The notes beneath the pieces are model-generated. The model was not told where the DNA came from. It saw nothing but the letters and a program-made list of their open reading frames with translations, and searched no databases. A program made the position numbers and the translations under genes. DNA of 64,000 bases from Methanoculleus taiwanensis (GTDB taxonomy: Archaea; Halobacteriota; Methanomicrobia; Methanomicrobiales; Methanoculleaceae): assembly GCF_004102725.1 (NCBI RefSeq), contig NZ_LHQS01000003.1, forward strand, positions 307,889 through 371,888, in the 5' to 3' direction. Numbering within the stretch: position 1 is the first letter of the stretch; the number at the start of each line of letters is the position of its first letter. Shown here one piece after another: positions 2,011-45,048 of the stretch.

Positions 2011-3507
2011 TTACTTTCCAATCTTGATCCGCCTGGCCATAATGCACGGCCCGCCACAGACCCCGCCGAGCGGATCTTTCGGCTTTCCGATCGAGTTCAT
2101 GCACCGCCCCATCAGGGCTGCACCACGGGCAAGACCGTCATCGACGAAGACGAGGTGATCGTTCGGTACATCGTAGATCCCCCTCTCGGCAATGCCGTCG
2201 AGGATATACTCAGGCTTCCTCCCGGAGATTGCGGCTCTCCCGGTGAACCCGATCGCGGAGTTTGCAGGAACCATCCCCTGTGCGATGGCAACATCGACGA
2301 GACGGAGTGCCATCTCCGCACAGACGTGGTCAACGACCTGCGTGAGCAGGCCGATACCATGGTTATCATAGATCTCTTTCCCGATCTCTTTAAGGATGTC
2401 CATTTCACTGCCGTTGACGCCGCAGTCACACCCGATCAGTGCAACGCCCGACTCGGCGGCCGCGGCGGCGCAGACCGGCACTCGCCCGAACCGGGTGCGG
2501 TCAGGCGGAACGATGCGGATATCGATATGCTCGTGGCAGCGATCGACATATTCCTTGACAAGAGAGCCCTTCCGGTTCGAAAATCCGCTCCCGATGCTCT
2601 TATCCCCGAGGAGGTCGAGAGCGGTGCCGGTCCGCTCCCGGACAAGCCCCGTTCCCCGCACGATCGAGTCGGGTATCGCTCCGGCAAGCCCGCAGAAGTT
2701 GCCGATGGTCTTGGCGAACGGGTTCGGCTCGTCGGGTGCGACGTCGCTCGTTATCCGTCCGTCAAGCGTCGTCCCGAAGTCTATGGAGAGACAGGGGTTC
2801 CGGAAATCGACCGGCGTCCACTTCGCACCCTCCTTAATGCCTGCCATCGCAAGCTCGCCCTCCATCTCGTTCGCCACCATCTCGACACCGGTACACCCGA
2901 CCGGCGGGACGACTCCGGCAACCGCGCCGACAAAGACAACCCGGTCGGCAAAACTGTGCTCCCGCAGTTTCTTCGGAAGATTCTCGATCGACATAGGGGG
3001 CGTCATCTTCCGGGGCGGAACGCCTGCCTCAAGACACCCGTTCGCGAGCGCAATAATGAAATCCCCTACCTGGTCGGGGGAATCCATCGCCGCCACCACG
3101 CCCGTACTCCGGACGACGAAGTCGAGGTCGTCCTGAATAGAGAGGTTCGCCTCTTTATGGCACCGGATAAGGGTGTCGCGGACGAGCTCCGTTACCGACT
3201 CGCGGGTCAGCTCTGTCCCGTCGAGCGTGGCGCCGAAGACCTCCTCGCCCGGTCTCGGCGGCCGGACGTCGCGGCTCATGGTCACGTTCTTATTGATGAT
3301 ATACGTTCGACCGGTCTCGAGATTCGTACCGGTGAGGATGCACTTCGTCGTCGTATTTCCCATCTCGACGGAGGCCACGATAAAATAGGGTTTCACCTTA
3401 TACTCCGGCATCGTCATCCCGGCCCCGTGCGAGATCGACGGTGGAGGCGGGCTCTCCACGATATGTGGTTTGGGTTTGAAAAAGCGCTCCAAAAAGCGGG
3501 CACACAT
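2011..3507 (-). CDS. Methanogenesis marker protein 14
   Basis: This 498-residue protein matches the methanogenesis marker 14 family, which is found essentially only in methanogens. Segments near the N-terminus (VASVEMGNTTTKC) and middle (SIDFGTTLDG) look like the phosphate-binding loops of the ASKHA fold (acetokinase, Hsp70, actin), so an ATP-dependent activator role is plausible; that is inference. A TATA-like element (AGATATAAAG on the minus strand, 3531-3540) lies about 27 bases before the ATG at 3507, fitting a leaderless message from that start. An upstream ATG at 3603 precedes this promoter, and a later one near 3417 begins the best-conserved region. A small coupled gene follows. Confidence 0.85.
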   Translation of the reverse strand: MCARFLERFFKPKPHIVESPPPPSISHGAGMTMPEYKVKPYFIVASVEMGNTTTKCILTGTNLETGRTYIINKNVTMSRDVRPPRPGEEVFGATLDGTELTRESVTELVRDTLIRCHKEANLSIQDDLDFVVRSTGVVAAMDSPDQVGDFIIALANGCLEAGVPPRKMTPPMSIENLPKKLREHSFADRVVFVGAVAGVVPPVGCTGVEMVANEMEGELAMAGIKEGAKWTPVDFRNPCLSIDFGTTLDGRITSDVAPDEPNPFAKTIGNFCGLAGAIPDSIVRGTGLVRERTGTALDLLGDKSIGSGFSNRKGSLVKEYVDRCHEHIDIRIVPPDRTRFGRVPVCAAAAAESGVALIGCDCGVNGSEMDILKEIGKEIYDNHGIGLLTQVVDHVCAEMALRLVDVAIAQGMVPANSAIGFTGRAAISGRKPEYILDGIAERGIYDVPNDHLVFVDDGLARGAALMGRCMNSIGKPKDPLGGVCGGPCIMARRIKIGK

Positions 3508-9056: not shown

Positions 9057-9270
9057 CTCTTTTTTCCGACTCTGCCGGAACATACGGGCTGTCGGCCAGG
9101 TCTTTGCCCCGTGCCCGGTCAGCGGTGACGCGGACGAACTCCAGAGGTGCTCGGCTGATATCTATCAGCATTGCCTTCCGATTGCGGGCGTCGGTGAGCG
9201 GATGCACATGAGTAATAGCCACAGAATATCTCCGGGCAGATTTGTGCAACACAGCACCGGTTAAGCAACG

Positions 9271-9278
9271 CTTATATA
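9271..9278 (+). promoter_or_regulatory. TATA box of candidate RNA, copy A
   Basis: CTTATATA is preceded by AACG. The same AACG-CTTA-ATA arrangement (one base different) stands at the same distance before the second copy at 44.6 kb. The predicted transcription start is near 9300. Confidence 0.6.
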
Positions 9279-9299
9279 TCGGCAATCCAGGCCGAGATC

Positions 9300-9515
9300 T
9301 TCCGAATTTCGACCCACACAGAAGCCCTCAGACAGCCGATCTCGGGTCGATCCAGGGGGAGACATCCCCGGAAAATTACTCTGCCGCATATGGCCGACAT
9401 GGCTCTCCGATCCTGCCGTTTTACGGTGATCGGGGCGACATATACAGGATAATTTCCGGTACTGGAATCCGACATCCGAAGAGGGCGATAGAACCGGAAA
9501 ATAACGCCGATTTGA
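9300..9515 (+). ncRNA. Candidate structured small RNA, copy A
   Basis: This stretch shares sequence with 44667-44880. Seen here: a long-range stem TCGACCC (9309-9315)/GGGTCGA (9344-9350), a hairpin built from TCC-GGGG (9351-9358) and CCCC-GGA (9366-9372), a conserved AAAATTACTCTGCC (9372-9385) whose GCC pairs with GGC at 9392-9394 around an invariant CATAT loop, and CCGATC/GATCGG (9407-9412 and 9428-9433) enclosing CCGT/ACGG. A conserved block GAAAATAACGCCGAT closes the element. Indels between the copies break all reading frames, which argues for RNA rather than protein. I do not recognise the family, and the 3' end is uncertain. Confidence 0.55.
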
Positions 9516-9982
9516 CCTTCGTTCGGGAGGCCCGGAGGGTGACTTTCCCGCGGGGAGACGTGTTTCGCGATCCGCTGTTCGAAGAGATCCCGGCAAGCCC
9601 GGGAGAACGCAGAAAACAGGGCATTTTGCGTAATTACTGCCACAGTTATCGTCCATCCATAAGCCATACGCAGATCCAGATCGGCTGCGCACGCTCATCA
9701 GGCCTTCCTCTTCAGTCCGAAGAATTGCCGGACGAGCCCGGCATTCTCTTCCCGGATCCTGCTATGTCCACCAGCCAGTTTTTGCCCGACCTCTTCTGCG
9801 ATGCGGCTGAAAAGTTGTGACCAGGAAGGCGATTGAGAAAGGGATTTTATACCGTCTCATTACGGGTGCTGTTGCACATTGGAGTTATCACTCTTGGTTG
9901 TCGTGGAACTCTGTTTCCGTAGCCTTCTGAGTGCAGTCTCACTGCAAGAATTGCCTGGCGATTTCCCGCATGGCTTTCTTTG

Positions 9983-10690
9983 TCATGGCAGTTCACCCAT
10001 ATACCGTATACGTTCAAGCCGCCCCGGAATGCCGTTGGTTACGGACTCCCATGCCGTATCGCGGTAACGTTCGTAAGATCGGAAACGACAGGGAAGGCCG
10101 GTGGCTGTAAACGGGTCGTCTCCCTTCATGAGCTGGAAATGCAGATGCGGCGCCATTGTATTACCCGAATTGCCGACTTCGCCGATCAGAGCGCCTGCCT
10201 GTATCTGCTGCCCTTCTTCTACGTTCACTGAGCCGCTCCGGAGATGCGCCAGAAAAGCCGAGCAGCGTTCCGAGCGGACGACGACACAGTTTCCGGCGAT
10301 CCGGTGGAGATCGATCTTCCGGCGGGAGGGTGCACGCATGAACGAATAGGTGAGAAGGAGCGAGTGAAAGATATCCTTGAACGTGTTCACTTCCAGTATG
10401 TCGGGCCAGCCGTCGCGGACCATGACGACTTCGCCATCAAAGGGAGAATATATCGGCTGAGCCCAGCCATAGAAGTCATTTACCGAGACATGACCGTATA
10501 GTTGATGAAGCCTGTTTTTCGACGAAAACCGCATGGAAGGTTCCCATTTTGCCCTTACGAAATCGAAGGCATAGCGCAGGCCGAACTGCTCCGTGCCGTG
10601 GCTTGGTACACGGTATGCAGGCGTACGGACGGCCGTCCATTCACCACGGAGTGGGAACTCGACAGTATTGTTATCTTCCGCGTTGCGCAT
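9983..10690 (-). CDS. M23-family metallopeptidase (LytM-like), no signal peptide
   Basis: This 235-residue protein has the zinc-peptidase M23 pattern in a variant form: His31 and Asp43 (HGTEQFGLRYAFDF) as first metal ligands, His149 (FLAHL) and the hallmark HLH at 182-184 (PHLHF), with VEEGQQIQAGALIGEVGNSG between. M23 enzymes normally cut glycine-containing bonds in bacterial peptidoglycan, which methanogens of this type lack, so the substrate is unknown. No signal peptide or membrane segment is visible, which suggests a cytoplasmic role. It is a single gene flanked by long gaps. The start is the first ATG and could be later. Confidence 0.85.
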   Translation of the reverse strand: MRNAEDNNTVEFPLRGEWTAVRTPAYRVPSHGTEQFGLRYAFDFVRAKWEPSMRFSSKNRLHQLYGHVSVNDFYGWAQPIYSPFDGEVVMVRDGWPDILEVNTFKDIFHSLLLTYSFMRAPSRRKIDLHRIAGNCVVVRSERCSAFLAHLRSGSVNVEEGQQIQAGALIGEVGNSGNTMAPHLHFQLMKGDDPFTATGLPCRFRSYERYRDTAWESVTNGIPGRLERIRYMGELP

Positions 10691-44507: not shown

Positions 44508-44637
44508 AACAATCCATTTTTCACCCGAAGCGGGCAACAGCCGGAACCGGATACAATAGAACCGTCTTCAGATGCCTCCTGCGGATATCACCGGCTCGAT
44601 GACCGGGCATGCAGGCTCTTGTTCTGGCCAGGGAACG

Positions 44638-44645
44638 CTTAAATA
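44638..44645 (+). promoter_or_regulatory. TATA box of candidate RNA, copy B
   Basis: CTTAAATA is preceded by AACG. It stands exactly 39 bases before the CGACC arm of the first stem, the same spacing as in copy A. Confidence 0.6.
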
Positions 44646-44666
44646 CCCGGAATCCGGGTACAATCC

Positions 44667-44882
44667 GCCGGAAAAACGACCATCACAGAAGCCCGCAGAC
44701 GGACGATCTCCGGTCGGGGTATGCTATCCATCCCCTCAAAATTACTCTGCCTCATATGGCCAGTATACCTCACAATTTTCCGAGTATTTTCAAAATAGGG
44801 CAGAGATAATCCGGCATCCTCTTTTAGCAGAATCGGTCACAAAAAACTCCGGTAAAATCGAAAATGAACGCCGATAGGCCCT
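44667..44882 (+). ncRNA. Candidate structured small RNA, copy B
   Basis: It aligns with copy A at 9300-9515. CGACC (44677-44681) pairs with GGTCG (44712-44716) across the same 30-base loop. GGGG (44716-44719) can pair with CCCC (44732-44735). AAAATTACTCTGCC (44738-44751) is identical to copy A, and its GCC pairs with GGC (44758-44760) around CATAT. The closing block GAAAATGAACGCCGAT (44860-44875) matches copy A with one inserted base. Between the blocks the copies differ by substitutions and short indels. The RNA would run towards the 3' end of the convergent paralogue gene. Confidence 0.55.
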
Positions 44883-45048
44883 TATTTTACAATGGAAGAT
44901 GGTGCTCCCCGGGCACGACTGCGCCCCGGATACCGGACGAAGCGGTGCAGGGCGGACACCGGATCCATCGAGAGTACCCGAATGTTTTAAACCCGGTAGA
45001 ATGGCCACCCCGAACAAAAAAGTGAACTTGCCAGACGGGATCGGCAGA

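Follow-up and report, generated by a model that had tools for sequence, protein, structure and literature searches.

Two intergenic stretches of the Methanoculleus taiwanensis DNA analysed here (64,000 nucleotides in all, hereafter the window) resemble each other closely, which raises the question of what kind of element they represent. A sequence-only reading of the window had taken them for two members of an undescribed family of structured small RNAs, or for a mobile non-coding repeat that brings its own promoter. The observation behind that reading was right, but the family is far larger than two copies, and the property that stands out in it is a helical phasing of the DNA.

Two copies of a large family

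Copies A and B can be aligned end to end, and they do have in common the TATA box, the CACAGAAGCCC block, AAAATTACTCTGCC and the terminal GAAAAT..ACGCCGAT that had been listed for both. The span first given for copy A, 9267-9513, lies on a real copy, but the true limits are wider, from about 9260 to about 9551. The single-base indels described between A and B are also real, and no reading frame stays open in all copies. The features in the window are as follows.

9260..9551, plus strand: element copy A, whole (profile positions 1-290, nhmmer 249.5 bits; further copies in the genome)
9260..9278, plus strand: BRE and TATA box of copy A, GTTAAGCAACGCTTATATA (TATA at 9271-9278), from the sequence and the count of TATA boxes at the fixed place
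9300 (about 9298-9302), plus strand: predicted transcription start of copy A, placed 26 bp after the TATA centre
9310..9343, plus strand: most conserved block of copy A, CGACCCACACAGAAGCCCTCAGACAGCCGATCTC, from near-invariant alignment columns
9231..9458, no strand: strongest 11.2-bp A/T phasing in the window, at copy A (power 15.1, top of 64 kb)
44629..44912, plus strand: element copy B, whole (profile positions 3-287, nhmmer 203.6 bits)
44638..44645, plus strand: TATA box of copy B, CTTAAATA, from the sequence, the alignment and the count
44677..44710, plus strand: conserved block of copy B, CGACCATCACAGAAGCCCGCAGACGGACGATCTC, from the sequence and the alignment
44646..44873, no strand: second-strongest 11.2-bp A/T phasing in the window, at copy B (power 11.9, second of 64 kb)

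With copy A as the query, blastn found 16 places in the same genome, a second copy at 8e-39, and 19 in the sister species Methanoculleus sp. FWC-SCC1, the best at 4e-38; matches of this strength exclude a chance origin of the likeness between A and B. A profile search raised the number of matches to 26 in M. taiwanensis and 45 in FWC-SCC1 (best E 2e-70), and the same profile detected relatives in several families of the order Methanomicrobiales, so the copies in related genomes that had been looked for are many. A second profile, built for the Methanogenium group, found 24, 60, 64, 41, 59 and 12 copies in six genomes, among them Methanogenium sp. MK-MG, and a 25-base pattern of the element also occurs in Methanogenium cariaci. 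Copy number is patchy, from 0 to 64 per genome, and in two genomes of the Methanogenium group some 60 copies of 235-300 bp occupy, by estimate, at least half a percent of the chromosome. One divergent subfamily of about nine copies (L073, L086, L089 and L093, in genome G004) keeps the promoter and the 5′ block, while its 3′ half is different and its phasing is weak.

Outside Methanomicrobiales, no matches were found in three samples of 159-393 genomes, the widest of which covered the phylum (393 genomes). The viral contigs, plasmids and phages searched held no match to the element, and we rejected a viral or plasmid origin accordingly. Occurrence in bacteria was also rejected, as the two non-archaeal contigs concerned have only the 25-base pattern, by chance. 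A search of Rfam 15 at the gathering score returned only a tRNA in the 64-kb window and no match to the element, relaxed searches with copy A and 10 other loci gave sub-threshold matches at chance level only, and we found nothing like the element in the literature searched. It thus appears that this is a large, undescribed, non-coding family of promoter-bearing elements of about 270 bases, present in 12 to 64 copies per genome in many methanogens.

Anatomy of the element and its promoterless units

Across about 295 columns, 36 copies align with nearly no gaps. The 66 copies compared have a mean identity of about 0.56, so that they have diverged by about 44%, yet indels are almost absent, which fits a constraint on spacing; copies so diverged could hardly have kept their spacing and promoter almost free of indels without selection. 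Each copy begins at its 5′ end with a BRE and a TATA box, GGTTAAGCAACGCTTAAATA, and in 52 of 63 Methanoculleus copies the fixed position holds YTTAWATA, allowing at most one mismatch (chance 0.0006 per position). The promoter that the sequence-only reading had seen in two copies is therefore a property of most of them. A near-invariant block of about 30 bp, which reads CGACCCTCACAGAAGCCCTCAGACGGCCGATCTC in most copies, starts about 10 bases past the expected start of transcription and is followed by CATCC, itself near-invariant, AAAATTACC, CTCATAT and other short words. The 3′ end is G-rich/C-rich and terminator-like, and conservation stops at the BRE upstream and just past this end downstream, leaving a module of about 235 bp from transcription start to terminator-like end. 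An own promoter and an intergenic position, as expected of an independent small-RNA gene, are both present, and transcription from the built-in promoter is predicted.

In Methanogenium, the promoter is absent from 23 of the 58 copies studied, many of which are second or later units in tandem arrays. The likeness between promoterless and promoter-bearing copies starts at the transcription start predicted from the TATA box, and upstream of that point the agreement of the promoterless copies drops to background. This supports the promoter prediction and suggests that the RNA, or a copy of the RNA, is the module that is reused. Two promoterless tandem units were also seen directly 3′ of a type I restriction specificity (HsdS)-like gene (L244).

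These features are what one would expect if the copies encoded sibling trans-acting small RNAs, about 230-240 nt long, unfolded and acting through linear conserved words, an explanation that we consider possible but doubtful. The promoter at a fixed place, the repeated unit that coincides with the predicted transcript, the highly conserved block just past the start with its near-invariant CATCC, the terminator-like 3′ ends and the intergenic position of copies irrespective of the direction of their neighbours all speak for it. The word CAUCCUCC, a complement of the Shine-Dalgarno sequence GGAGG, could block ribosome binding on many mRNAs; titration of a protein is a possible alternative action, and tandem units would raise the dose.

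RNA folding and coding potential

The element does not behave as a conserved structured RNA, which we rejected. RNAalifold, mutual information and a search for stems in the copies were all negative, and the best stems did not exceed those of a column-permuted null, with 53 effective sequences in Methanoculleus and 32 in Methanogenium. Folding energy is ordinary, with a mean z of -0.49 on the plus strand and -0.51 on the minus strand (66 copies). It had been claimed that the arms of three hairpins stay paired between copies A and B, but in 36 copies these hairpins have 53.0% paired cells, against 52.1% after shuffling. In neither genus does a helix covary beyond chance. Hence, the family is undescribed and non-coding as the sequence-only reading had proposed, but "structured" does not hold, since stems, covariation and energy all fail. 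The same absence of covarying helices in the two genera, and of surplus folding stability, weighs against small RNAs as the explanation, even in an unfolded form.

A small protein-coding gene on either strand is very improbable, and this explanation is largely refuted already. Over stretches of 75 bp, certain frames lack stops in as many as 92% of the copies, which would favour it, with a wide null spread. Nevertheless, every reading frame over the element has stops in many copies, the frames with the fewest stops show no clear or consistent synonymous excess, single-base indels vary among copies and no start codon is conserved. A short ORF on the minus strand, with a GGAGG site and its end in the TATA box, was considered and rejected because it has stops in many copies and an unstable start. 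No conserved protein frame, a finding that would have spoken against a non-coding family, was detected.

Helical phasing of the DNA

Along about 230 bp of the element, patches rich in A/T alternate with patches rich in G/C, roughly once in each turn of the helix. The A/T profile of the alignments has a period of 11.2, with a power of 18.8 in Methanoculleus and 21.5 in Methanogenium, and the phasing power of the aligned copies was reached by none of 1000 shuffles at any period. It is the distinction of A/T from G/C that carries the 11.2 signal, which is absent from the purine and keto classes; the main contributor is T in Methanoculleus and A in Methanogenium. This exchange of A for T, combined with the class pattern, points to double-stranded DNA rather than to a word in RNA.

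When the whole window was scanned at 11.2, copy A came first (from 9231) and copy B second (from 44646). The median power of the copies was reached by 0.07% of 4549 background windows, and most of the distant copies are phased as well. The background of Methanoculleus has instead a weak A/T peak at 10.0 bp, in both coding and intergenic DNA; a genome-wide A/T periodicity of about 10 bp has been reported for histone-using archaea (PMC10128011).

A strictly regular 11.2-bp wave was rejected, as a better fit is given by about three arms per element, with local periods mostly of 10.0-11.2 and, in both genera, phase jumps of about half a turn near +53 to +78 and +145 from ACAGA. The arms are significant one by one (p<=0.0005). 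Because the spacing between crests is irregular, from 8 to 16 bp, we take 11.2 as a coherent average and deduce from it neither the handedness of wrapping nor a single geometry. The distances between tandem units fall on integer multiples of 11.2 bp (R=0.73, p about 0.003). Between the two genera, the phasing of the diverged 3′ part shows a correlation that is no more than suggestive (p 0.059), with the limitation that common ancestry keeps the phasing of the two from being fully independent. Taken together, the near-fixed length and the A/T patches once per turn suggest that the DNA itself is shaped for wrapping. The small-RNA explanation leaves the A/T phasing, the exchange of A for T and the scarcity of indels unaccounted for.

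Candidates for a wrapping protein are present in the cells. One to four histone genes were found in each of the 8 genomes tested, and a gyrase with the wrapping domain (GyrA C-terminal domain) in all 8; MC1 was rejected for this role, being absent from all 8.

Genomic placement and spread

All copies are intergenic, in either orientation. By gap type, 19 copies lie between convergent, 30 between tandem and 12 between divergent genes; there is a mild preference for convergent gaps, and the orientation of the element is independent of its neighbours. A role as leader or terminator of neighbouring genes was rejected, given that in tandem gaps 14 copies run with and 16 against the direction of the genes, and that the neighbours vary.

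Within a local cluster, copies are more closely related to one another than to any others. In some cases true orthologs occupy the same site in two species (L127/L152, 74% identical, and L141/L119), and two gene gaps are filled in both species by copies of opposite orientation and non-orthologous sequence (copy B/L149 and L144/L151). The latter suggest repeated arrival in suitable gaps in addition to vertical descent. The earlier proposal of a mobile repeat thus finds support in part, from local tandem copies and from these unrelated copies in the same gap. A selfish or tolerated non-autonomous repeat, which would multiply by duplicating locally and by inserting between genes, perhaps after reverse transcription of its own RNA in the manner of a SINE, is nevertheless unlikely. 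Promoterless copies that start at the predicted transcription start, mutually closest local clusters, the two gaps with non-orthologous opposite copies and the patchy distribution all agree with it; the orthologs kept at their sites do not, nor does the retention of spacing and promoter in indel-poor copies at about 44% divergence, for which selection is needed. No transposase was found among the recurring clusters of neighbours, and a search for an empty site with the neighbour of copy A (9983-10690) gave no match in four relatives.

Some neighbourhoods are conspicuous in their own right. For instance, six direct copies lie within 21 kb of contig 7 of the sister species (L117 and L118, about 137-159 kb), interleaved with toxin-antitoxin-like genes of nucleotidyltransferase/HEPN and HicAB-like types, and a cluster of four copies surrounds an ATPase and a VapBC-like pair (L119). 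A cassette that adjoins several copies (L041, at 2291-3159; L048, L052, L056 and L064; and beside L072 and L074) encodes two proteins, an orphan of about 170-180 aa (MADFV..TKTAVREL..) and a small one that looks like a coiled-coil/membrane protein (MxEEKTTRELVYE..). The orphan gene is convergent to the element, and single copies in other Methanoculleus species adjoin it as well. The proteins of the cassette had no Pfam matches, and the orphan had none among PHROGs. We rejected the idea that the element is the RNA partner of one gene, as the orphan family of 170-180 aa adjoins only five or six copies.

Possible roles

Our preferred explanation, put forward tentatively and rated somewhat short of probable, is that of a dispersed, transcribed DNA element with helical phasing, which an architectural protein or gyrase wraps. 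Each copy would be a short non-coding transcription unit with a built-in archaeal promoter ahead of a module of about 235 bp, whose phased DNA may be wrapped or bent by an architectural protein, the candidates present being archaeal histones and DNA gyrase. A wrapped copy could then form a local site of chromatin or topology between genes, and transcription from the built-in promoter might be part of making or controlling that site. The analysis establishes the family, its promoter consensus and near-fixed length, the lack of a reading frame and of a conserved fold, the helical phasing, and the promoterless tandem units that start at the predicted site; the transcription, the wrapping, the partner in it and the purpose of the element we infer. 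A site that acted purely at the level of DNA leaves unexplained why the promoter is retained and why tandem units begin at the transcription start. We therefore rank wrapped, transcribed DNA first, unfolded sibling small RNAs second and a repeat copied through RNA third, and the three are not fully exclusive.

A bolder claim, which we regard as rather improbable, would be that this is a new kind of prokaryotic element, fixed in length and bearing a promoter, under selection for the phasing of its DNA with the helix and not for a fold or a protein, multiplying in part as promoterless units copied from the transcription start onward, and organising the chromatin or supercoiling of methanogens. 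If the copies are wrapped, they would provide defined, countable sites for shaping the chromosome in archaea equipped with histones as well as gyrase; if it is the transcript that counts, the family would rank with the largest families of small RNAs in any one archaeal genome. In either case, the predictions are sharp, concerning start sites, 5-bp insertions and occupancy, and make the question directly testable.

Comparison with known systems

Several known systems have some of these properties, each with differences. The sibling small RNAs of the cuckoo/CcsR type comprise several related genes per genome and are short and folded, with a C/U-rich anti-Shine-Dalgarno word. The element likewise occurs as several related non-coding members per genome, with a C/U-rich word that could base-pair with ribosome binding sites, but it is longer, unfolded and of nearly fixed length, it occurs in dozens of copies and its DNA is helically phased.

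The REP and BIME sequences of enterobacteria resemble it in having many intergenic copies per genome (about 26 for the element in its own genome). REPs are palindromes of 20-40 bp (PMC3733652), to which roles in cell physiology have been attributed and which may be non-autonomous mobile elements (PMC8266576), and BIMEs are preferred gyrase sites (PMC6379681). In contrast, the element is about 270 bp long, has its own promoter and has neither a palindrome nor a covarying stem.

Closer to it are strong gyrase sites, such as the Mu SGS and the E. coli Topo-Seq motif, with which it has in common helically phased GC/AT arms. The E. coli gyrase motif is a degenerate sequence of 130 bp whose GC content follows the helix, with a period of 10.75 bp, in arms around a centre (PMC6379681). 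Unlike this motif, the element is about twice as long, and it has about three arms with half-turn shifts, a near-invariant block of 30 bp and a TATA promoter. DNA bound by archaeal histones has A/T phasing near 10 bp and wraps in multiples of 30-60 bp (PMC10128011). The element may resemble such (hyper)nucleosome positioning DNA in its A/T phasing, in its local period, mostly 10.0-11.2, in the histones present in the cell and in the 10.0-bp peak of the genome background, but DNA that positions nucleosomes does not come as a conserved, dispersed family that carries a promoter and a fixed block of sequence. The E. coli gyrase motif (PMC6379681) and the DNA preferences of archaeal histones (PMC10128011) are the closest physical models for the element.
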